From: a virus
Length of the DNA stretch: 38,394 nucleotides
Virus record (IMG/VR): IMGVR_UViG_3300028840_001730
Span: 1-38,394 of that record
Direction: 5' to 3' (one strand)
The notes under the pieces are model-generated. The model worked only from the letters and a program-made list of their open reading frames with translations, searched no databases and was not told where the DNA came from. Each line of letters begins with the position of its first letter. Positions within the stretch are counted from its first letter, which is position 1. Of this stretch, positions 2,493 through 12,742 are shown in pieces. The position numbers and the translations under genes were made by a program.

Positions 2493-2752
2493 AGAAGATA
2501 ATATTGTTAGGCATTTTAGTTTTAATAGTGTTGGTGGTGTGTGATGTCAATGATGTTCCTGTTCCACCAGACGCAAACTATTGGGTTTCTGTTGGTGTAG
2601 TAAACCAAAATTACAAAAGAGACTTTAGGGGATATGCTTTGGATTTTGAGATTAAAGAAAATACTTTAATTATTACCAAATTAGACGGAACTCTACGCAT
2701 AGTTGGTTTGGATGGAAAAGTAGCAGATATTATCCCATTGGAAGGAAAATGA
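2489..2752 (+). CDS. Putative lipoprotein or membrane-anchored small protein (87 aa)
   Basis: Seen: GTG 2489 overlaps the upstream TGA, with AGAGGGAGA upstream; a longer frame to 2438 lacks a ribosome site and is rejected. Residues 1-19 are VKK followed by a hydrophobic stretch (IILLGILVLIVLVVC), and the LVVC ending could be a lipobox or simply a membrane segment. The rest (DVNDVPVPPDANYWVS ...) looks like a beta-rich extracytoplasmic domain with short strands (TLIITKLDGTLRIVGLDGKV). Inferred: exported or surface-located protein. It lies directly before the sugar genes and overlaps NeuB by 4 bases. Confidence 0.65.
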   Translation: MKKIILLGILVLIVLVVCDVNDVPVPPDANYWVSVGVVNQNYKRDFRGYALDFEIKENTLIITKLDGTLRIVGLDGKVADIIPLEGK

Positions 2753-3600
2753 AATATAAACAGCCAATTGTCATAGCGGAACTCTGCTGCAATCATGCCG
2801 GTGACATGGAAACAGCCAAACGGATGATACGGATGGCCGAGATATGCGGCGTAGATGTATGCAAACTACAAAAAAGAGATATCGAAAGCCAGTGGTCGCT
2901 TCACCCGCATATGTACGACAGTCCACATCCTAATCCTCCTAACGCATTTGGCAAAACCTATCGGGAACATCGGGAGTTTTTAGAGTTTGATGTGACCCAA
3001 CACCGGCGCCTAAAACAATATATCGAACAATACGGTATGGAATACTCTACCTCGGTCTGGGATATTGTATCAGCCCTACAGATTATAGACATAGACCCTT
3101 TATTCATCAAAGTGCCTAGCGCGCATAACACCGATTATCCTTTACTAGATATTCTCAAGAAAAAGTACACAGGAGATATTCATGTATCGTTAGGCATGAC
3201 TACCGAGCAGGAGAGAGAGGAGCTTCAGATTTATTGGGAGGACAGCATGGATAGGATAGTCTTGTACCACTGCACATCGGGGTATCCCGTATATGCTCCG
3301 GACGCCTATCTGCTGGAAATCGAGCGCCTAACAAAAATCCCCTGTAAAGCAATAGGCTTCTCTAATCACCACCCTGACATAAATTTGGATTTTGAAGCCC
3401 AAGCTTTGGGAGCTAGCTGGTTTGAGCATCACGTGACCCTGGACCGATTTGCCAAAGGGACTGATCATTCAGCAGCCTTAGAGTTTGAAGCTCTCCGCAA
3501 TCTAGTCCGAGGGCTAAGAGAAGGATACGAAGCTCTCAAATATAAACCGGTAGAAATGTGTCAGCTAGAGTGGGAGCAGAGAAAGAAGTTAAAGGAGTAA
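2749..3600 (+). CDS. neuB: NeuB-family nonulosonic acid synthase, lacking the C-terminal SAF domain (283 aa)
   Basis: Role (family): condenses phosphoenolpyruvate with a 6-carbon amino sugar to form a 9-carbon nonulosonic acid (sialic, legionaminic or pseudaminic type). Seen: TIM-barrel signatures in order: AELCCNHAGDMETAKRMI (10-27), KLQKRD (39-44), IKVPSAHNTDYPLL (120-133), SLGMT (147-151), LYHCTSGYP (172-180), IGFSNHHP (202-209) and FEHHVTLDRFAKGTDHSA (225-242), the last being the family hallmark. At 283 residues it ends after the barrel; typical NeuB is about 340-350 with an antifreeze-like (SAF) lid domain, which is absent here. ATGA overlap with the previous gene. Exact sugar product cannot be told from sequence. 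Confidence 0.9.
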   Translation: MKYKQPIVIAELCCNHAGDMETAKRMIRMAEICGVDVCKLQKRDIESQWSLHPHMYDSPHPNPPNAFGKTYREHREFLEFDVTQHRRLKQYIEQYGMEYSTSVWDIVSALQIIDIDPLFIKVPSAHNTDYPLLDILKKKYTGDIHVSLGMTTEQEREELQIYWEDSMDRIVLYHCTSGYPVYAPDAYLLEIERLTKIPCKAIGFSNHHPDINLDFEAQALGASWFEHHVTLDRFAKGTDHSAALEFEALRNLVRGLREGYEALKYKPVEMCQLEWEQRKKLKE

Positions 3601-3603
3601 AGA

Positions 3604-3756
3604 ATGGAATGGGCTAGGATTATTGTTAAATTTCTACCATGTGTATTATTAGGAATGTATTTTGGTTTAATAATCAAGCGATGGTGGATGGGATGGGTTA
3701 TAGGAGGACCAATAGTTATTGGATGGATTTTTGTTTGTTATTTGGCATTTGAATGA
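3604..3756 (+). CDS. Small membrane protein, two transmembrane segments (50 aa)
   Basis: Seen: ATG 3604 after AAAGGAG. The product has hydrophobic segments at about residues 6-23 (IIVKFLPCVLLGMYFGLI) and 29-48 (GWVIGGPIVIGWIFVCYLAF), joined by IKRWW. It sits between NeuB and the radical SAM gene, overlapping the latter by 4 bases, so it is translated with the sugar genes. It could anchor a partner at the membrane; no family recognised. Confidence 0.65.
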   Translation: MEWARIIVKFLPCVLLGMYFGLIIKRWWMGWVIGGPIVIGWIFVCYLAFE

Positions 3757-5102
3757 AGATTCTCCTAATTAACCGAGAGTACGACAGCTTTGCCAATTGG
3801 TTCCCTACCAACTTAGCTTATATAGCTGCTTCTCTTAGGAAGCAAGGCCATGAAGTGGAGGTATACGACAATGCCCTTTATCACTGGAGTTACGATAGAC
3901 TCACAAATTATCTTGATAACACAACTTTCGATATCGTTGGTTTTGGCGTTTGCGGCGGCTATTTTGAGTATAAGCAGGCCAAGTTACTCACGGCAGCAAT
4001 TAGCAGAAGTGTTAGGCGTCCTCGGTTTAGGGTCGTTGTTGGGGGTCATCTTTTCTCTCCTGACCCTGACTATTTTCTTGATAAGTGGGACATAGATTAT
4101 GTGGTGAAAGGTGAGGGAGAGGAATTGGGTGGAATGTTGGCTGAAATAGGGACATTTCCTATAAAAGAAAAGACATGGATGCAATTTCCTCTTATTCAAG
4201 ACCTTGATACTATCCCCTTTCCAGCTTATGACTTGTTTGATTTGAATCATTACGTTCTTCACCGTTTCCATGCTCACATGAAGCGGTCTGACCGTGCCTT
4301 GCCGATGATTTCCAGCCGGGGGTGTAAGTTTAATTGCAACTTCTGCTATCGCATGGACAAAGGCCAGCGCCTAAGAAGTCCCTTAAATGTAGTCGAAGAA
4401 ATCCGTTATTTACAAAAAACCTATGACATCAACTATATATCCTTTGCGGATGAATTATTCATGGCCTCAACAGAACGGTCTATGATGATGGCCGATGCGT
4501 TAGGCCCCCTAAATATACGCTGGGATTGCATGGGTAGGTTAAACTACGCCAAACCTGGTGTGTTAAAAGCCATGAAAAGAGCAGGGTGTACCTTCATTAA
4601 CTATGGGATAGAGCAGTTTGATAATCAGGCACTCAAGGCTATGAACAAAGCCCTGACAGAAGAGATGATCGTGAAGGGGGTAGAGAACACGCTGGCCACA
4701 GGGATAAGTCCGGGCCTAAACGTAATTTGGGGTAATGTAGGAGATACATATGAATCATTATGGAAGAGTGTCGATTTTCTTTTGGCATATGATGATCAGG
4801 TTCAATTGCGTACTATCCGACCTGTTACGCCCTATCCCGGAAGTCCTTTATATGATCTCGCCGTTAAAGAAGGGCTTATTAAAGATATTGAAGACTTTTA
4901 CGAGAATAAGCACACTAATTCAGACCTAAGAACCTGCGATTTCATGGGCCTAACAGATGAAGAATTTTACAAAGCACTCAAAGCAGCCAATATCCAGCTA
5001 GCTTCAAATTACTATGAGCAATTAAAGAAGAGAACAATAAAACAAATACATAATCTGTATGATAATCGGGATGCTACATTTAGGGGGTTTAGAGCAGTAT
5101 GA
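3753..5102 (+). CDS. B12-binding-type radical SAM enzyme (449 aa)
   Basis: Seen: an N-terminal Rossmann-like B12-binding domain (residues 1-130: MKILLINREY ... VVVGGHLFSPDPD ... VVKGEGEE) and a radical SAM core starting SSRGCKFNCNFC, with the [4Fe-4S] cysteines C191, C195 and C198 in CxxxCxxC spacing. Further core motifs: ISFADELFMAS (about 225-236) and YGIEQFDNQALKAMNK. The usual DxHxxG cobalamin ligand motif is not evident, so B12 may bind base-off or not at all. Family: such enzymes do methylations, methylthiolations or rearrangements of complex substrates. Inferred: acts on the sugar, its lipid/protein acceptor or a metabolite made by this operon. Overlaps both neighbours by 4 bases. Confidence 0.9.
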   Translation: MKILLINREYDSFANWFPTNLAYIAASLRKQGHEVEVYDNALYHWSYDRLTNYLDNTTFDIVGFGVCGGYFEYKQAKLLTAAISRSVRRPRFRVVVGGHLFSPDPDYFLDKWDIDYVVKGEGEELGGMLAEIGTFPIKEKTWMQFPLIQDLDTIPFPAYDLFDLNHYVLHRFHAHMKRSDRALPMISSRGCKFNCNFCYRMDKGQRLRSPLNVVEEIRYLQKTYDINYISFADELFMASTERSMMMADALGPLNIRWDCMGRLNYAKPGVLKAMKRAGCTFINYGIEQFDNQALKAMNKALTEEMIVKGVENTLATGISPGLNVIWGNVGDTYESLWKSVDFLLAYDDQVQLRTIRPVTPYPGSPLYDLAVKEGLIKDIEDFYENKHTNSDLRTCDFMGLTDEEFYKALKAANIQLASNYYEQLKKRTIKQIHNLYDNRDATFRGFRAV

Positions 5103-5329
5103 AAGTAACGGAAACATTTTGTGATATATGTGGGAAAGGTTTGACTGATGAAGAGTGTTATAGAATTAAGGCTCACCTAATAGATATAGGAATGACCATG
5201 AAGAAAAAGCATTTATTTTTGAAATTCCAAATTGGTAATAACGACCCAGAGATTCCCGATATTTGCAAATCCTGTGGAATGGCTATTGTGGAATTTGTTA
5301 AAGAATGGAAAAAGCAATTTGCTATATAG
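5099..5329 (+). CDS. Small zinc-ribbon protein (76 aa)
   Basis: Seen: ATG overlaps the radical SAM stop by 4 bases. CxxC pairs at residues 8-11 (CDIC) and 56-59 (CKSC) bracket a 45-residue insert with a hydrophobic core (HLFLKFQIGNNDPEIPD). The C-terminus is a charged helix (VEFVKEWKKQF). This is a typical phage treble-clef-like small protein; no function assigned. Confidence 0.7.
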   Translation: MKVTETFCDICGKGLTDEECYRIKAHLIDIGMTMKKKHLFLKFQIGNNDPEIPDICKSCGMAIVEFVKEWKKQFAI

Positions 5330-5338
5330 GAGGGGAAA

Positions 5339-5728
5339 ATGACCAAGAAGACGTATTATAGAATAATAAAAGAAGCAATTAAGAAATCAGAAAATGTGTT
5401 AGGCATGAAATTGTTTCAAAGGTTATTTTTGAAGATAGCATGGAAATGGTTTAAACGATATAGAAAGTTTAAGTTTGAAAATGATTCGATTGCTACGATG
5501 GCGGGCATAATCAGCTATTATCTAATGAGTCTAAGCGGAAGAATGGTGGTTGCTAAAATAGAAATATCAGTATGTAAAGATGGACCTGGGAAAATATATC
5601 AGACTATGAATCGAACTTGTGGTGTAAGAACAGCAAAAAAGATGCTTAATGATGCAGTTATGTCCATAAATGGACAAATACCATCTACCAATCAAAAAGA
5701 CTTTTTAACAAGGGGGGAAAATGTCTAA
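5339..5728 (+). CDS. Hypothetical basic protein (129 aa)
   Basis: Seen: ATG after AGGAGGGGAAA. The N-terminal half is strongly basic and aromatic (KLFQRLFLKIAWKWFKRYRKFKF residues about 24-46), the C-terminal half mixed. No motif recognised. It uses more A/T-ending codons than the enzymes around it. It overlaps the DUF115 gene by 8 bases. Possibly membrane-peripheral through the amphipathic helix, which is inference only. Confidence 0.6.
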   Translation: MTKKTYYRIIKEAIKKSENVLGMKLFQRLFLKIAWKWFKRYRKFKFENDSIATMAGIISYYLMSLSGRMVVAKIEISVCKDGPGKIYQTMNRTCGVRTAKKMLNDAVMSINGQIPSTNQKDFLTRGENV

Positions 5729-7070
5729 CTCACAAGAAAGATTAAATACAATCAGCTTTAATAATGCTGTCCGTAAGTACTGGATTAGAGCGTGGTTGTA
5801 TAATGCAATCAAAAATCATCCCATGCTAGAAAGAAGGTACAAAGAAAAGGGAGACCAGATAGCAGCAGGGACAGAGAAATTAGAACATGCTAAACCAGCG
5901 TTAGTGTTAGGCGCCGGGCCGAGTCTGGATGAGATCGCTACCAAGATACAACACTGGAAGGGTACGGTTTTCGTGCCTAACTCACTTTGTAAATGGGCTG
6001 ATGCTATTGGGAGGCATCCAGACTATGTAGTGGCTATTGATGCCTCACGAGAGATAGGAGATGACCTTTGGGGGCCTCACTATTATGCATCTACTCTTAT
6101 CACCCATCCCTGTGTAGATCCTCACGTTTACGATGTATGGGGAGACAACCCCCTAAAGCTCATCCGTATGTTTGAGCCTGGTAACGAGATTATTAACACG
6201 ATGTATCAAACCCTCTATCCGTGGATAGGTTCATACATCATCAACTCAGGCTGCGTATCTAACTCGATGATTCTCGTGGCTAGCATGCTAGGGTATTCTC
6301 CGATCTATCTGATAGGCCACGATTTTGCGTATCCTGACGGGATTATGCGATTTCAGGACTTTGATTATAGAGGCAACTTCTGCTACTTACCCAAGAAAGC
6401 GAAGAAGATGGTTGATTTTGAGGATGCGTGGGAGCGGCCTCAACTCTTGAAGGCTGATAACGGCTTGTTGACTACCAGAACGATGATCTTCTACAAGCAG
6501 ACCTTCATGTGCAATTGGAAGCTGACCGGCGCCCAACTAGTGAATATGAGTAAGAGTACTATCCTGTCTGAGCTTCCCTTTGCTGAGTTAGACGATGTGT
6601 TAGCTTCACAGTGGGACAAGGAAAAGGCTAAAAAGCTAGCCAGATTACATAAATCAAGAAAAGAGATAGACGAGATTTGCGACAACTATCTTGTACCAAG
6701 GGGGATGTTTGCCAAGTATCATCCAGAGTTAGGCGCGATTTTGGGCATAGAGATTATCGGTGAGATGCCTAACCGAATTGCAGAAGCAGAGAAACAGCTT
6801 GAAGGGATGAAAGAAGGCTACAACACATGGGAGCCGCCTAACAAAGAAAAACCTTATTGGACAAGAAAAGATGTAACCTTAACAAAAACACCAGATTGGG
6901 AGTGGAAAGATGAACCCGATATTAATGACCCAGAGCAGAATCAAGAACAGCCGGTTTCCGCAGAAGATGTTGAAGGAAGTCCACGGCAAGAGCCTCCTGC
7001 AAATCCACCTGGATCGGCTTCAGCCGTTATTGGATACTCAGCCGGAGACAAACCATCCGCTGGCAAATGA
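5721..7070 (+). CDS. DUF115 / Maf-like protein (putative nonulosonate transferase) (449 aa)
   Basis: Role (family): DUF115 (MptE/Maf-like) proteins include the motility accessory factors that move nonulosonic acids from CMP-sugars onto flagellin, and pterin-type pyrophosphokinases. Seen: nucleotide-binding loop ALVLGAGPSLDEIA (residues 60-73), VVAIDAS (103-109), and the hallmark block SGCVSNSMILVASMLGYSP followed by IYLIGHDFAY (about 176-205). Context with NeuB and a cytidylyltransferase favours the Maf-type reading. The last 53 residues (about 397-449) are Pro/Glu/Asp-rich, look disordered, and are read in a different frame across the start of the next gene. Ribosome site AAGGGGGGAAA. Confidence 0.85.
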   Translation: MSNSQERLNTISFNNAVRKYWIRAWLYNAIKNHPMLERRYKEKGDQIAAGTEKLEHAKPALVLGAGPSLDEIATKIQHWKGTVFVPNSLCKWADAIGRHPDYVVAIDASREIGDDLWGPHYYASTLITHPCVDPHVYDVWGDNPLKLIRMFEPGNEIINTMYQTLYPWIGSYIINSGCVSNSMILVASMLGYSPIYLIGHDFAYPDGIMRFQDFDYRGNFCYLPKKAKKMVDFEDAWERPQLLKADNGLLTTRTMIFYKQTFMCNWKLTGAQLVNMSKSTILSELPFAELDDVLASQWDKEKAKKLARLHKSRKEIDEICDNYLVPRGMFAKYHPELGAILGIEIIGEMPNRIAEAEKQLEGMKEGYNTWEPPNKEKPYWTRKDVTLTKTPDWEWKDEPDINDPEQNQEQPVSAEDVEGSPRQEPPANPPGSASAVIGYSAGDKPSAGK

Positions 7071-7680
7071 TCTAATCGTTCTCATCCCCGATGTAGAGGA
7101 AGAGGACCCGCTTGAAGAGGAATGTCGGCGCCTAAACGTAAAATGTTTCCGAGGGAGTGAAGAAGATGTTTTGGACAGATTCTACCAATGCGCCCGAGAA
7201 TATAAGGCCGATCCTATCATACGACTTACTTCGGATGACCCCTTTGCAGATTGGCGAGTTATTGCTAGAGCTATTAACAAGTTCAAACGATTCAATTGTG
7301 ACTACGTATCGAACGAATGGCCTGGACGAGAAACCTATCCGGAAGGACTGGACGTACAAGTAATCAGCTTCAAACTACTAGAGGATATGTGGGAGGAGGC
7401 TAAAGAACCGGCTGAACGAGAGCATGTAGTTCCGTGGATATGGAATCACAAGGATAAGTACTACGTAAAGGAAGAAAGAAACAAGCGGGACTATTCGCAT
7501 TATAGGTGGACCGTCGATTACGCAAGTGACTTAGCTATGGTTTCGGATGTAGTGGGTTATTTTGGAGACAAACCTTTCTTTATGGAAGAGTTGATTCACT
7601 ATTGGCGTTTATATCCCTCAAAGGCAAGAACATTTCGAGATGTACAAAGAAAACAAGGAATAAAGGAAAGTATGAAATGA
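6910..7680 (+). CDS. SpsF/NeuA-like cytidylyltransferase (256 aa)
   Basis: Role (family): transfers a nucleoside monophosphate to a sugar acid, here probably making the CMP-nonulosonate donor. Seen: N-terminal nucleotide-binding signature MTQSRIKNSRFPQKMLKEV (about 6-24), equivalent to the QARxxSxRLPGKxL motif; SDDPFADW (about 108-115) as the metal-binding region; NEWPGRETYPEGLDVQVI; and a C-terminal WTVDYASDLAMV (W-T-(V/L)-D) typical of SpsF-type enzymes. The start overlaps the DUF115 gene by 161 bases in another frame; the signature motif lies inside the overlap, so the start cannot be much later. Overlaps the RNA ligase by 4 bases. Confidence 0.88.
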   Translation: MNPILMTQSRIKNSRFPQKMLKEVHGKSLLQIHLDRLQPLLDTQPETNHPLANDLIVLIPDVEEEDPLEEECRRLNVKCFRGSEEDVLDRFYQCAREYKADPIIRLTSDDPFADWRVIARAINKFKRFNCDYVSNEWPGRETYPEGLDVQVISFKLLEDMWEEAKEPAEREHVVPWIWNHKDKYYVKEERNKRDYSHYRWTVDYASDLAMVSDVVGYFGDKPFFMEELIHYWRLYPSKARTFRDVQRKQGIKESMK

Positions 7681-8294
7681 AAGAGTATAGTAAAATTGAG
7701 TCTTTATTTAATAGGGATGAAAAAACTCATAAATTTAAAGTTGGAGAATTTCGTTTACCAGAATTTCATTACTTAAAAGATAATCAATGGTTATTTACTG
7801 AAAAAGTTGATGGAACAAATATTCGAGTAATGTGGGATGGCGAATCTATTAGAATAGGTGGACGTACTGATAACGCGCAAATACCGACCTTTCTTTATGA
7901 TAGATTAGTAGAACTTTTCCCAAAAGATAAGTTTGGTATTTTTGATTGTCCAGTTTGTTTATATGGAGAAGGATATGGAGCAAAGATTCAAAAAGGAGGA
8001 GGTAATTACAAGTCAGATGGAGTTGATTTTGTTTTATTTGACGTAAAAATAGAGGAATGGTGGTTGAAATGGAATGACATAATGGATGTAGGAGCAAAGT
8101 TGCAAATTGATATTGTTCCTATTGTTGCGATAGGTACATTAGAAGATGCAGTTCAAAGAATTAGGGAAGGAATAAAGTCAGCATGGGGAGATTTCCAAGC
8201 AGAGGGGTTAGTATGTAGGCCTCTAGTGGATTTGATGGCTCGAAACGGAAAGAGAATTATTACTAAGTTAAAAACAAAGGATTTTAATGTATGA
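7677..8294 (+). CDS. RNA ligase, Rnl2-like nucleotidyltransferase (205 aa)
   Basis: Role (family): ATP-dependent joining of RNA ends through a lysyl-AMP intermediate; phage enzymes repair tRNAs cut by host defences. Seen: motif I TEKVDGTN with K43 as the adenylated lysine, motif III-like LYGEGYGAKIQ (95-105) and FVLFDVKI (118-125), motif IV AEGLVCRP (175-182) and motif V KLKTKDF (197-203). The protein stops right after motif V, so it is a bare catalytic domain. Start ATG 7677 gives the ATGA overlap; a longer frame back to 7602 is rejected. Codons are more A/T-rich than in the flanking sugar genes, suggesting separate origin. Confidence 0.88.
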   Translation: MKEYSKIESLFNRDEKTHKFKVGEFRLPEFHYLKDNQWLFTEKVDGTNIRVMWDGESIRIGGRTDNAQIPTFLYDRLVELFPKDKFGIFDCPVCLYGEGYGAKIQKGGGNYKSDGVDFVLFDVKIEEWWLKWNDIMDVGAKLQIDIVPIVAIGTLEDAVQRIREGIKSAWGDFQAEGLVCRPLVDLMARNGKRIITKLKTKDFNV

Positions 8295-9355
8295 GCTACG
8301 TCACCCAACTAGAACAAGAGTTTGCTGCAAGGGTAGGTGCTAAATATGCCATAGCCATGAACTCAGGAACGGCTACACTTCACGCCACTCTATTAGCTAT
8401 GGGAGTAGACAAAGGGGATGAGGTGATTGTTCCGGGGTTAGGCCCCATTATGACTTCGGCAGCGGTGATACAGGCCAGGGCCAAACCCGTATTCTGTGAT
8501 GTTGAGCCTCTTACTTTTACTATGGACTCTAGGGCCTCTCTGACTAAGCTAATCGGGCCTAACACAAAAGCTGTTATCTCTGTATCTCTTTACGGCCTCC
8601 CCTCCCGACTAGATGAGATTCAAGCTATTTGTAACGATCACAACCTATTCCATATCATAGACAATGCTCAGTCAGTTCTATCTACATTCCGGGGGAATCC
8701 TGTAGGGAACTATGCCCTTGCCACTTCCTATTCTTTTGAATCTTCCAAGCATATAAATGTAGGTGAAGGTGGGATAGTGACGGTTAATAATGAGTATTTG
8801 GCCCGGAAGATAAGACAGTATGGGAATCACGGTTTCCGGTGCCTAACTAAACATCCTCCTAAATCAGAACTCCAACAACTAGGATATGAACGACACGACC
8901 TGATAGGCTGGAACTATCGCATGCCAGAACTGGTTGCAGAAAATGCACTAGAACAGGTAAAAGTCCTTAAAGAAATTGTCCAAAGAAGAATAGATGCAGC
9001 CATCATTATCCGTCAAGTATTGAGGGAATATCCCTACTTTTCTCTCCAAGCGGAGCCTAACGATAGAACTAATTCTTACTGGTGTGTGGCTGCCACATAT
9101 CATCCAGGTGCAAGTGATATGACTTGGTCTAAGTTTTATAAGAGGGTAGTTGAGTTAGGCGGCGAAGGGTTTTACTCAGCCTGGCTTCCCCCTTATCAAG
9201 AGCAAGCTATCAACAGCATAGGGGATTGCCCAGGGGCAGAGTTTCTATCTACCCATTTGATGCAATTTCCCAACAACTACACCACAGGGGAAGCTAAGAG
9301 GCAAGCATATATATTAAGGAAAGTATGTGAAGAAATACATCATAACGGGAAGTGA
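8291..9355 (+). CDS. DegT/DnrJ/EryC1-type PLP sugar aminotransferase (354 aa)
   Basis: Role (family): PLP-dependent amination of a keto-sugar nucleotide, as done by PseC and LegC in nonulosonate pathways. Seen: N-terminal MNSGTATLHATLLAMGV (23-39), GDEVIVPGL (42-50), VFCDVEP (67-73), DNAQSVLS (124-131, usually D-x-A-Q) and PLP-lysine region SFESSKHINVGEGG, with K153 as the likely Schiff-base lysine. The substrate-binding end is present (YHPGASDMTWSKFYKRV). Length is near the family norm (about 370). Overlaps the ligase by 4 bases and the SDR gene by 29. Confidence 0.9.
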   Translation: MSYVTQLEQEFAARVGAKYAIAMNSGTATLHATLLAMGVDKGDEVIVPGLGPIMTSAAVIQARAKPVFCDVEPLTFTMDSRASLTKLIGPNTKAVISVSLYGLPSRLDEIQAICNDHNLFHIIDNAQSVLSTFRGNPVGNYALATSYSFESSKHINVGEGGIVTVNNEYLARKIRQYGNHGFRCLTKHPPKSELQQLGYERHDLIGWNYRMPELVAENALEQVKVLKEIVQRRIDAAIIIRQVLREYPYFSLQAEPNDRTNSYWCVAATYHPGASDMTWSKFYKRVVELGGEGFYSAWLPPYQEQAINSIGDCPGAEFLSTHLMQFPNNYTTGEAKRQAYILRKVCEEIHHNGK

Positions 9356-10004
9356 AGGACTTTTAGGGAGTGTAATAGCAGATTATTATGAAAAGAAAGT
9401 ACAAGTTGTCCGAGTAGATAAGAAATTGGGTTATAATCTTACCAAAGTTAAGCAAGTCCAGGCTCTTATCTCAACTAATCCTGATGCTAATGGGCTGGTG
9501 GTTTGCCATGCTATTAACCCCCAGCCTAATGATGATGCTTATACTGTATTCAATCTCCCCCAAAGCAGCTTTGCTCCCTACTTTCAGGTCAACCTACAAA
9601 CAGTGTTTGTACTTGTCCGTGAGTTTGCTGCCGTATGTCAACGTGGTAGCTCGGTGGTTTTATTCGGGAGTACTTACGGTTTGGTCGCGCCACGCCCTTC
9701 GCTCTACCCGCAAGGAACTATCAAGCATCCAGCCTACACGATAACCAAGGCCGGGATTATCGGCATGACCAAGTGGCTTGCTGCCTGGCTGGCGCCTAAC
9801 CATAGAATTAACTGTATCTGTCCTGGTGGAGTAGAAAACAACCAAGACCCTGAGTTTATCAGAAAGTATAGTGAATTAACCCCTATGGGTAGGATGATGA
9901 AAAAGGAGGAGATTATCGGTCCAGTAGATTTCCTACTGTCCAACAACTCCTCCTATATGACAGGCTCGATTTTAGTCGTTGATGGTGGATTTACGGCTGT
10001 TTAA
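9327..10004 (+). CDS. Short-chain dehydrogenase/reductase, PtmA-like (225 aa)
   Basis: Role (family): NAD(P)-dependent oxidoreductase; related SDRs (PtmA) sit in legionaminic/CMP-sugar operons. Seen: TGSEGLLG (7-14) as the glycine-rich cofactor loop, catalytic S115 (FGSTYG), Y137 and K141 (YTITK), then CICPGGVENN and VDGGF near the end. GTG start with AAGGAAAG upstream; it overlaps the aminotransferase by 29 bases. It ends the plus-strand block and overlaps the convergent minus-strand gene by 3-4 bases, with no terminator between. Confidence 0.88.
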   Translation: MKKYIITGSEGLLGSVIADYYEKKVQVVRVDKKLGYNLTKVKQVQALISTNPDANGLVVCHAINPQPNDDAYTVFNLPQSSFAPYFQVNLQTVFVLVREFAAVCQRGSSVVLFGSTYGLVAPRPSLYPQGTIKHPAYTITKAGIIGMTKWLAAWLAPNHRINCICPGGVENNQDPEFIRKYSELTPMGRMMKKEEIIGPVDFLLSNNSSYMTGSILVVDGGFTAV

Positions 10005-10520: not shown

Positions 10521-10844
10521 CTACACATTAGATTCATAATACAGAAAGTCAAATGCTTGGTTAGGCAGCAAATGGATAGCTGTGTATTTTCCGGCGCCTA
10601 ACTCACATCTTGTCGGATGATACCATTTCCCATTAACCCATGCTGATACTACCATCACGCCAGGATTGACACTCACTATCAGAACACTATCGGGCAGCAC
10701 CAACCCAGCACATACATCGTTGATATAGCAGGCGATGATTTGTTCGGTATGGTTGAAGAACTGTATTTGTGCTGGATCTGCTTCGGGCAGGGTGGTACAC
10801 ATCGCCAGGCTGGCGCCTAACAATAAAACTATTATCCGTTCCAT
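10521..10844 (-). CDS. Putative lipoprotein (107 aa)
   Basis: Seen: signal peptide MERIIVLLLGASLAMC with a lipobox-like LAMC (Cys16), then an exported beta-rich domain with a cysteine pair (IACYINDVCAGLVLP). Compositionally it resembles small domains that bind surface partners. Inferred: anchored to the host envelope, possibly for superinfection exclusion. It carries both motif orientations (10560, 10596, 10815). Overlaps the pentapeptide gene by 13 bases. Confidence 0.72.
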   Translation of the reverse strand: MERIIVLLLGASLAMCTTLPEADPAQIQFFNHTEQIIACYINDVCAGLVLPDSVLIVSVNPGVMVVSAWVNGKWYHPTRCELGAGKYTAIHLLPNQAFDFLYYESNV

Positions 10845-11518
10845 TCTTCTGCCTCTTCTCTAGTAAGAAAGAAGTGTATACCGTGGCTACACTCTACTCT
10901 GATATCAGGATCATAGCTGTCCGGGTAAACTGTTTTGCCAATTTCATACAAAATAGAACCATACCCCGAACCGGCAGATGACTGTGGCTCATTTCCCTGG
11001 ATAGCTAATACAATAGCTGCGCTAGCTCTACATTTTCTTCCTATCAATGATGCTGTACGTTTAGCCCATGCGGGGATAAGCAAATGGATGATTTTACCAT
11101 TTACTTTCTTGTATACTCTCAATTCTCCATGTTGGGGTATTTGAAAATGAGGTAATTTCGCTCCCCCAAGGTTCGCTCCCCGAAGGTCCGCTCTCCCAAG
11201 GTTCGCTCCCTCAAGGTTCGCTCCCCGAAGGTCCGCTCTCCCAAGGTTCGCTCCCTCAAGGTCCGCTCCCCGAAGGTCCGCTCCCCGAAGGTTCGCTCCC
11301 TCAAGGTCCGCTCCCCGAAGGTCCGCTCTCCCAAGGTTCACTCCCTCAAGGTCCGCTCTCCGAAGGTCCGCTCTCCCAAGGTTCGCTCCCTCAAGGTCCG
11401 CTCCCCCAAAGTTCGCTCCCCGAAGGTCCGCTCCCCGAAGGTCCGCTCTTTCTCCCCTACCATTATTTAACCATTTTGCATGATCGTCTAATACTTTCTT
11501 TAGTTCTTCTTTGTTCAT
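10832..11518 (-). CDS. Pentapeptide-repeat protein with DUF5758-like C-terminal domain (228 aa)
   Basis: Seen: after a 20-residue helical lead (MNKEELKKVLDDHAKWLNNG), residues about 23-127 are some 20 tandem pentapeptides of form A(D/N)LxG/R, which fold as a right-handed quadrilateral beta-helix. The C-terminal 100 residues (VYKKVNGKIIHLLIP ... ECSHGIHFFLTREEAEEW) match the domain that commonly follows phage pentapeptide repeats. Role unknown; some pentapeptide proteins mimic DNA and bind gyrase. The repeat is nearly identical at DNA level (15-bp units), so recent expansion or contraction is likely. Confidence 0.85.
   Translation of the reverse strand: MNKEELKKVLDDHAKWLNNGRGERADLRGADLRGANFGGADLEGANLGRADLRRADLEGVNLGRADLRGADLEGANLRGADLRGADLEGANLGRADLRGANLEGANLGRADLRGANLGGAKLPHFQIPQHGELRVYKKVNGKIIHLLIPAWAKRTASLIGRKCRASAAIVLAIQGNEPQSSAGSGYGSILYEIGKTVYPDSYDPDIRVECSHGIHFFLTREEAEEWNG
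11158..11455 (-). repeat. 15-bp tandem repeat array coding the pentapeptides
   Basis: About 20 units of a 15-bp repeat (plus-strand form close to AAGGTCCGCTCCCCG, with TTCGCTCCCTC variants). Period 15 is exact, and variants alternate in a regular three-unit pattern (Leu-Arg-Gly, Leu-Glu-Gly, Leu-Gly-Arg codings). It lies wholly inside the pentapeptide gene. Confidence 0.9.
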
Positions 11519-11937: not shown

Positions 11938-12114
11938 TCATCCCCATCCTCCTGTCATAGTAATATCTATCTCCCTTCTCAGTTCTGCTAGTCGATGGGT
12001 TGTATCAGCTGGGAGATTTTCTTTTTCTATTAGGCGCTGAATCCTGAGCCGGTCGGCGCCTAACCCTAAATACTTCTCTTCTATTCTTCGGTTAAACTCT
12101 TGCCAATCTTCCAT
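11938..12114 (-). CDS. Hypothetical helical protein (58 aa)
   Basis: Seen: MEDWQEFNRRIEEKYLGLGA then RLRIQRLIEKENLPADTTHR, two predicted helices with a turn, ending TMTGGWG. ATG at 12114 overlaps the previous gene's TAA (TAATG) and has AGAAGGAA upstream, so it is preferred over the ATG two codons earlier. No family recognised. Confidence 0.6.
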   Translation of the reverse strand: MEDWQEFNRRIEEKYLGLGADRLRIQRLIEKENLPADTTHRLAELRREIDITMTGGWG

Positions 12115-12269
12115 TACCATTTCCTTCTCTGTGCTATTCCCTTATTCATGGCTTCATGGAAAGCTTTAGCAGATACTCTGTTCTCAACATATAACCGTAT
12201 GGCGGTATGTTGATCACCCTCATATGCTGCTACCTCAATTAGTTTTAAAACCTTTTCTCGTTTTGTCAT
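12114..12269 (-). CDS. Hypothetical helical protein (51 aa)
   Basis: Seen: ATG (complement 12269) with ATAGGGGG 7 bases upstream. Product MTKREKVLKLIEVAAYEGDQ ... NRVSAKAFHEAMNKGIAQRR is fully helical by composition and basic at both ends. It ends in a TAATG overlap with the next gene. Too short for most gene finders; function unknown. Confidence 0.62.
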   Translation of the reverse strand: MTKREKVLKLIEVAAYEGDQHTAIRLYVENRVSAKAFHEAMNKGIAQRRKW

Positions 12270-12276
12270 AACTCAT

Positions 12277-12310
12277 CCCCCTATCCTTTTATTTAGTCCT
12301 GGTGGACTAT
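12277..12310 (-). repeat. Leader repeat, short copy C
   Basis: 34 bp matching the first part of copies A and B (CCCCCTATCC through the TTTATTTAGTCC segment to GGTGGACTAT on the plus strand, one mismatch). It carries the AGGGGG ribosome site and the small AGTCC/GGACT-type hairpin but lacks the larger hairpin. Located just before the start of the 12114-12269 gene. Confidence 0.85.
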
Positions 12311-12320
12311 TGCTTCAAAA

Positions 12321-12482
12321 CTACTCTTCAGTAAGCATCTGAATATTTTTCTTATCTTCTTTTTCGCGAATCTCGTTTTCTTTTTGTTCTCGGATCATGC
12401 AATCCTCACAGATTGCCCATTTCGCTCCACCCTCGGAATAGCTTCCACTTGTCAGTTTTCCGCATCTTGGGCATTCGTGCAT
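12321..12482 (-). CDS. Zinc-ribbon protein (53 aa)
   Basis: Seen: ATG (complement 12482) after GAGGGGGAAAAG. MHECPRCGKLTSG carries CxxC at residues 4-7, and a second pair CEDC is near residues 25-28; a charged helix follows (EQKENEIREKEDKK). A clear small zinc ribbon, probably nucleic acid or protein binding. Confidence 0.7.
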   Translation of the reverse strand: MHECPRCGKLTSGSYSEGGAKWAICEDCMIREQKENEIREKEDKKNIQMLTEE

Positions 12483-12529
12483 CTTTTCCCCCTCATGTAC
12501 TTATTAACCGTTCATTGGCAACGATAGGT

Positions 12530-12742
12530 TTAATCGCAATAGGCCACACTACCGATTTGGGCTAGATTGGATACATGTACTTTGGTCGGTATTTCAGGAT
12601 TATTCCAATCCACTACTGCGATCATGCCGTTTAATTCTGTGACAATTCCCCTTGCCATAGGTATTGGTCCAGTATATGTACCTGTAGACCGTAACCACCT
12701 GCGAGAATAGCCAACCTTGTCACCAATTTTGATGGTATTCAT
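12530..12742 (-). CDS. Hypothetical SH3/KOW-like protein (70 aa)
   Basis: Seen: ATG (complement 12742) with GATAGGGGGATGAT from repeat copy A as ribosome site. MNTIKIGDKVGYSRRWL then TGPIPMARGIVTELNGM and AVVDWNNPEIPTKVHVSNL: alternating strands with a central 'G-(I/V)-V' turn, typical of small phage SH3-like or KOW-like barrels. No enzyme motif. Function unknown. Confidence 0.7.
   Translation of the reverse strand: MNTIKIGDKVGYSRRWLRSTGTYTGPIPMARGIVTELNGMIAVVDWNNPEIPTKVHVSNLAQIGSVAYCD

Follow-up and report, generated by a model that had tools for sequence, protein, structure and literature searches.

A phage operon that may direct synthesis of a KDN-type nonulosonic acid and its transfer by a Maf-fold protein

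Phages have previously been known to tweak a nonulosonate that their host makes. In Acinetobacter prophages, EpaB, a short-chain dehydrogenase/reductase (SDR) of the adh_short_C2 family, acts together with EpaA, a fusion of CTP_transf_3 and aldo-keto-reductase domains, to epimerise pseudaminic acid at C8 (PMC12053666). Another nonulosonate, 2-keto-3-deoxy-D-glycero-D-galacto-nononic acid (KDN), is made by way of a KDN-9-phosphate synthase that was studied in Prymnesium parvum, where mannose-6-phosphate was the only substrate used with phosphoenolpyruvate (PEP) among the sugars tested, and that has a bacterial counterpart in BT1714 of Bacteroides thetaiotaomicron (PMC6200933). Here we describe a sugar operon of nine plus-strand open reading frames (ORFs) at positions 2749-10004 of the IMG/VR virus record IMGVR_UViG_3300028840_001730, a linear contig of 38,394 bases, probably a fragment, whose whole length is called the window below.

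We consider, with a probability of roughly 0.55, that this operon of a phage lineage encodes a short pathway to a cytidine monophosphate (CMP)-activated KDN-type nonulosonic acid, together with the transferase for it. All of the biochemical steps are inferred from protein families, a conserved operon, domain loss, clade membership and a fold match. What would be new is a near-complete viral pathway with a synthase, an activating enzyme and a Maf-fold transferase, common to unrelated phages, and searches of the open-access literature turned up no description of a KDN-type synthase encoded by a phage. The parts appear ordinary and the set unusual, in that the phage glycan modification would be of the KDN type and not of the Neu, Leg or Pse type.

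The NeuB-family synthase and the predicted pathway

An original prediction, made from the letters of the window alone, had proposed a nonulosonate-type pathway, which our results support, with a sialic, legionaminic or pseudaminic acid as its product, which they do not. The NeuB-family synthase (2749..3600, +; PF03102 7.7e-49) ends after its barrel, at 283 aa and with no C-terminal extension, and the SAF (antifreeze-like) domain with its Arg314 is absent; all of the viral module NeuBs are likewise barrel-only. The Arg314 that the antifreeze-like domain contributes in Neisseria NeuB holds the N-acetyl group of N-acetylmannosamine (ManNAc) in position, and KDO8P-type synthases do without such a domain (PMC6795526). 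Within the barrel, the residues of the PEP and metal sites, equivalent to Neisseria meningitidis E25, K53, Q55, K129, S132, S213, H215, E234, H236 and D247 are kept in the window protein and in 14 viral relatives. The equivalent of Glu134 is His126 in the window protein and is Glu in none of the 15 viral NeuBs, which carry His, Cys, Leu, Met or Lys there; the bacterial barrel-only relatives, 76 of 76, have Cys, Ser or His at this position, and Glu or Asp occurs only among longer, SAF-bearing rows. We take Glu134 and Asp247 to be ManNAc contacts in NeuB. The window protein scores 142 bits against an NCBIfam cut-off of 400 for NeuB, and 108 against one of 340 for PseI.

In a tree, the NeuBs of the window and of a related phage (L005, described below) nest in a 33-row clade of bacterial barrel-only proteins with a support of 100, and this clade is widespread in Bacteroidota, Lachnospiraceae and others. 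A NeuA-type cytidylyltransferase and/or a haloacid dehalogenase-like (HAD) phosphatase, often fused, lies within four genes of NeuB in 61 of the 80 clade loci sampled. The neighbouring HADs that were tested have 3e81/3e84/3e8m as nearest solved relative (6e-43), ahead of KdsC; the depositor's name for these structures is acylneuraminate cytidylyltransferase, and we take them to be the KDN-9-phosphate phosphatase of B. thetaiotaomicron. Because of the clade, the gene neighbourhood, the missing SAF domain and the missing Glu134, the window NeuB is best read as a probable KDN-9-phosphate synthase. The original prediction had also called for host nucleoside diphosphate (NDP)-sugar intermediates, but mannose-6-phosphate and PEP would suffice for a KDN-type synthase, and such a route would likely bypass the nucleotide-sugar dehydratase. 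No PseB/LegB UDP-sugar dehydratase, hydrolase or N-acetyltransferase was seen among the scanned ORFs of the window, which is an incomplete fragment with some small ORFs unscanned.

Activation and amination of the sugar would fall to three further enzymes of the operon. These are an SpsF/NeuA-type cytidylyltransferase (CTP_transf_3; 6910..7680, +; PF02348 8.9e-15; nearest solved relative 6oew, 1.2e-26), a DegT/DnrJ/EryC1/StrS sugar aminotransferase (8291..9355, +; PF01041 4.7e-69) and a GTG-started SDR with S115/Y137/K141 (9327..10004, +; PF13561, adh_short_C2, 9.1e-26; nearest solved relative 6uh2, 1.9e-27). The pyridoxal phosphate lysine of DegT, K153 in SFxxxK, is invariant across 15 aligned rows of the module subfamily. 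KdnB and KdnA oxidise and transaminate C8 of 3-deoxy-D-manno-octulosonic acid (Kdo), and NtdC and NtdA do likewise on a glucose phosphate. If the phage SDR and DegT work in a similar way, they would swap a hydroxyl for an amine on KDN or on a precursor.

A further candidate for work on the sugar is the B12-binding radical-SAM enzyme (3753..5102, +; PF04055 1.7e-17, PF02310 6.4e-13), in which both the CxxxCxxC motif (191-198) and the B12-binding domain are present and cobalamin use is predicted only. Among solved structures it comes closest to AprD4 (6fd2, 1.8e-21), which is a diol-dehydratase acting on sugars. The gene is conserved in the loci L005, L008, L010, L015 and L017, and since it occurs in only part of the modules, it looks like an optional tailoring enzyme, which would probably methylate or deoxygenate the sugar.

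The last step would be taken by the DUF115/MptE-like protein (5721..7070, +; PF01973 6.9e-13), a putative glycosyltransferase with a Maf/sialyltransferase-fold domain followed by a low-complexity tail. A model of its trimmed core built with fifteen relatives reached a pLDDT of 78.6 and a pTM of 0.83, whereas a four-sequence model was poor (47.5). The better model matches Maf (5mu5) with Z 21.1 over 239 residues at a root-mean-square deviation of 3.1 (VIA-align; Foldseek 2.3e-9), in agreement with the Maf-like assignment of the original prediction; it covers Maf residues 239-514 only, and the tail has no confident model. Further VIA-align matches are an archaeal hydroxymethylpterin pyrophosphokinase (HPPK; Z 13.7), SteA (about 10), the sialyltransferases CstII and Cst-I (Z 9-10, CstII ~9.8) and mammalian sialyltransferases (about 9), and one relative also weakly matches CST-I. 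Because the Maf fold comes together with these neighbouring genes, a nonulosonate transferase is the most likely role, with the reservation that a fold is no proof of activity.

Taken in order, NeuB would condense mannose-6-phosphate with PEP to KDN-9-phosphate, and either a host phosphatase or one encoded in an unsequenced part of the genome would remove the phosphate. The SDR would then oxidise a hydroxyl and DegT transaminate the resulting ketone to an amino-KDN-like acid, from which SpsF would make the CMP sugar, and the Maf-fold protein would pass the sugar to an acceptor, with the odds slightly in favour of a virion protein over a host surface glycan.

Barrel-only NeuBs also occur in another viral setting. 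In a huge uncultured phage (LR756508; 9914-10813, 9247-9879 and 11978-14068), one stands among four GT29-type sialylmotif proteins, and the one sialylmotif gene scanned, at 11978-12661, matches PF00777 at 7.9e-32. Independently of the module, this hints that barrel-only NeuBs of viruses may feed enzymes of the sialyltransferase type.

The operon in its phage and in a diverged relative

The window contains both terminase subunits (TerS and TerL), a portal and a major head protein, all of them PHROGs matches, and on this gene content the contig is therefore that of a tailed phage; its rightmost gene runs past the right end. The phage origin claimed by the original prediction is thus supported by the window's own markers, and also by a related phage, L005 (IMGVR_UViG_3300033149_003571), which keeps the operon and whose terminase is 75-81% identical to that of the window, TerL standing at about 80%. 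The module has the same order in both: NeuB, radical SAM, a 129-aa ORF, DUF115, SpsF, DegT and SDR. The proteins are 54-73% identical (DUF115, 66%), except for the 129-aa ORF at 30%, and with dN of 0.19-0.38 and saturated dS, the genes appear to be under purifying selection. Even the overlap of the DUF115 low-complexity tail with the start of SpsF has an identical length of 161 nt (window 6910-7070, L005 7196-7356). A host island at the edge of a prophage, which the original prediction had set against its own proposal, is unlikely because L005 keeps the operon in synteny down to this overlap and alongside its own terminase; that explanation was dropped, and the operon can be assigned to the phage lineage. 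In L005, NeuB and the radical-SAM gene are separated by a PAPS-reductase-like gene (1925-2589, read from sequence).

The five families of the original prediction, namely NeuB, SpsF-type cytidylyltransferase, DegT, SDR and the Maf-like DUF115 protein, were all recovered with Pfam at the plus-strand place given for them. Its gene list was incomplete, however, and missed the B12-binding radical-SAM gene, an Rnl2-like RNA ligase and two small ORFs. The RNA ligase (7674..8294, +; KVDGTN motif; PF09414 6.9e-16, phrog_548 7.3e-22) overlaps the flanking operon genes at its start and stop and is absent from the L005 operon, and it is an insertion outside the conserved module. The 76-aa ORF (5099..5329, +) has no family match and is missing from L005 as well, while the 129-aa ORF (5339..5728, +), also without a family match, has its L005 homologue in the same place. 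From the radical-SAM gene onward, neighbouring genes abut or overlap, which makes translational coupling plausible. Minus-strand genes separate the operon from the head genes downstream; beside the operon is a pentapeptide-repeat-like protein with ADLRGADL repeats (10832-11518, -; read from sequence).

Recurrence of the module in viruses and cells

Profile queries built from DegT and SDR found DegT, SpsF, NeuB and SDR together in at least ten viral contigs besides the window (L005, L007, L009, L010, L011, L012, L016, L018, L020, L086 and L087), in L021, which is near-identical to L020, and in the genome of the cyanophage Marine virus AG-345-L05 (MH319754). When NeuB, SpsF and DUF115 served as single-sequence queries against viral contigs, nothing matched, the peptide patterns being too specific, and tblastn of DUF115 and SpsF against an annotated phage collection gave none. 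The viral nature of the contigs follows IMG/VR together with genes read or matched in L005, L008, L011, L012 and L086, and mainly IMG/VR for L007, L009, L010, L016, L018, L020 and L087, PF03237 and phrog_2 being poor terminase markers for these contigs. A NeuB match in FPLJ01000048 was rejected, since this record is a capsule contig of bacterial origin that had been placed with the phages.

SpsF adjoins 17 of 18 module-type viral DegT loci, compared with 1 of the 54 DegT loci of viruses that are not of this type (Fisher 2e-14), NeuB is found at 12 of 18 against 1 of 54, and SDR at 11 of 18 against none of 54; these loci are not phylogenetically independent, and several module loci without NeuB are short fragments. 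The association of SpsF, NeuB and SDR with module-type DegT is beyond chance. Of 15 viral records that bear the module, 6 also encode a DUF115/MptE-like protein. In L008 (5912-14672), the module directly follows P22-like portal (5.1e-154) and coat (9.3e-28) genes and includes three radical-SAM-type and two DUF115-type genes, with no SDR detected, and in L011 its neighbours are TerL on one side and an SPP1-like portal gene on the other. L008 and L011 are two unrelated phages that hold module genes among their virion genes.

A genome of the same phylum as L105, an uncultured spirochaete record, carries radical SAM, a KDN/KdsC-type HAD, DegT, NeuB and SpsF in one stretch (L185, 4367-13873), which by gene content is the cellular counterpart of the phage module. 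Among 296 genomes sampled from that phylum, 2 had strong module-type DegT (4 at E up to 1e-80), and samples of 298 and 398 genomes from two other phyla yielded 0 and 1 (E up to 1e-90). PseB-type loci (L186 and L190) account for two of these three strong cellular genes. The depths of the viral and bacterial searches differ, and an enrichment of the module in viruses is not claimable.

Competing readings and known systems

Several observations weigh against the KDN-type pathway as we read it. The characterised BT1714 sequence was left out of the NeuB tree, and membership of a KDN clade is therefore a matter of context. The NeuBs of other phage modules belong to a different clade (~31% identical), so that the product may differ between phages. 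As the original prediction had noted, no phosphatase was found in the window fragment, although L185 has its KDN/KdsC-type HAD and several phage modules have a small HAD-like gene of another kind. Finally, 64 of the 80 bacterial loci of the closest NeuB relatives hold NeuB only, without SpsF, DegT or SDR. This last point, together with the separation of NeuB from the SpsF-DegT-SDR block in the window and the swap of NeuB type relative to other phage modules, would fit two sugars, with KDN-9-phosphate serving one purpose and SpsF, DegT and SDR making a different activated amino sugar. We regard this as unlikely, since a NeuB of either type is kept at 12 of the 18 module loci, several of the others being short fragments, and both blocks keep the same order in L005. 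A canonical sialic, legionaminic or pseudaminic pathway that borrows early host NDP-sugar intermediates, as originally predicted, has in its favour that, of the named models, the NeuB and PseC/LegC-type profiles fit the window proteins best and that an SDR and a cytidylyltransferase fit such loci; it is quite improbable for a synthase that lacks SAF and Glu134, falls far under the NeuB and PseI cut-offs and sits in a KDN-type clade. Still less probable, and dropped after consideration, is that DUF115 is an MptE-like pterin diphosphokinase and not a glycosyltransferase: its Pfam family is named after MptE and HPPK is the second structural match, but Maf is clearly closer, GT42 and GT29 sialyltransferases come next, and MptE-like genes recur with the sugar module. 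That the operon is a chance acquisition of host genes, carried along as passengers or in decay, can be entertained because phages and hosts often exchange sugar genes, yet all frames are open, and the synteny and purifying selection seen with L005 make it the most remote of these explanations.

The acceptor is a more even matter. The same pathway might repaint host glycans or flagella, thereby blocking other phages or evading recognition, which we hold to be a substantial possibility somewhat short of even odds. EpaA and EpaB are phage nonulosonate enzymes that demonstrably alter the host capsule (PMC12053666), and the cyanophage module lies inside a long run of glycan genes that includes epimerases and methyltransferases, which favours the host surface. 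On the other side, no flippase, polymerase or membrane-anchored transferase was recognised in the window, the module lies within the head gene cluster in L008 and L011, and the Maf-fold partner suggests a protein acceptor in the cytoplasm, where Maf-type transferases of bacteria work on protein. Because of the head-gene position in two unrelated phages and the Maf-fold transferase, we lean slightly towards a virion acceptor and keep both acceptors open; in the window itself, the position of the operon relative to the head genes gives no virion hint. The broadest proposal is tentative and rather doubtful: that unrelated tailed phages share a mobile module which makes an amino-KDN-type acid from mannose-6-phosphate and PEP, in some cases altered by a B12 radical-SAM enzyme, and which transfers it through a stand-alone Maf-fold protein to their own capsid or tail proteins.

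The recurrence in unrelated phages suggests that a range of bacterial viruses sugar-coat their own particles or the infected cell, and with a viral pathway that in two cases is embedded among head genes, the idea of sialylation-like virion decoration would become open to direct test. There are hints, too, of a nonulosonate route without nucleotide-sugar dehydratases and of radical-SAM tailoring of such sugars. Since PHROGs v4 returned no family for the window NeuB, SpsF, DUF115 or radical-SAM proteins, routine annotation of phages largely misses the module.

Among known systems, the cyanophage MH319754 has the same four enzymes in one phage operon (SDR-SpsF-DegT-NeuB-HAD-like-DUF115-like). Its NeuB, SDR and DegT are 33-38% identical to those of the window and its SpsF 23%, with a NeuB of another clade; in this unannotated record, a small HAD-like gene is present and no radical SAM was found beside the module. 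The Maf flagellin glycosyltransferases (5mu5; PMC11339370) share the fold of the central domain and the GxGPSL motif region with the window protein, which matches only that part of Maf and has no recognised flagellin gene nearby. Acinetobacter EpaA/EpaB, which turn pseudaminic into 8-epipseudaminic acid on the host capsule (PMC12053666), likewise bring phage CTP_transf_3 and adh_short_C2 SDR domains to a nonulosonate, but they modify a host-made sugar only and include no synthase, aminotransferase or transferase. A further close system is the CMP-KDN pathway of B. thetaiotaomicron, with the BT1714 synthase, a phosphatase and a CMP-Kdn synthetase (PMC6200933): the nearest bacterial relatives of the window NeuB are barrel-only and stand beside a CMP-synthetase and a KDN-9-phosphate-phosphatase-like HAD. 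The window pathway differs in being phage-borne, in having an SpsF-type and not a NeuA-type cytidylyltransferase, and in showing no phosphatase within the fragment, and it adds an SDR, a DegT aminotransferase, a radical-SAM enzyme and a Maf-fold protein to that scheme.

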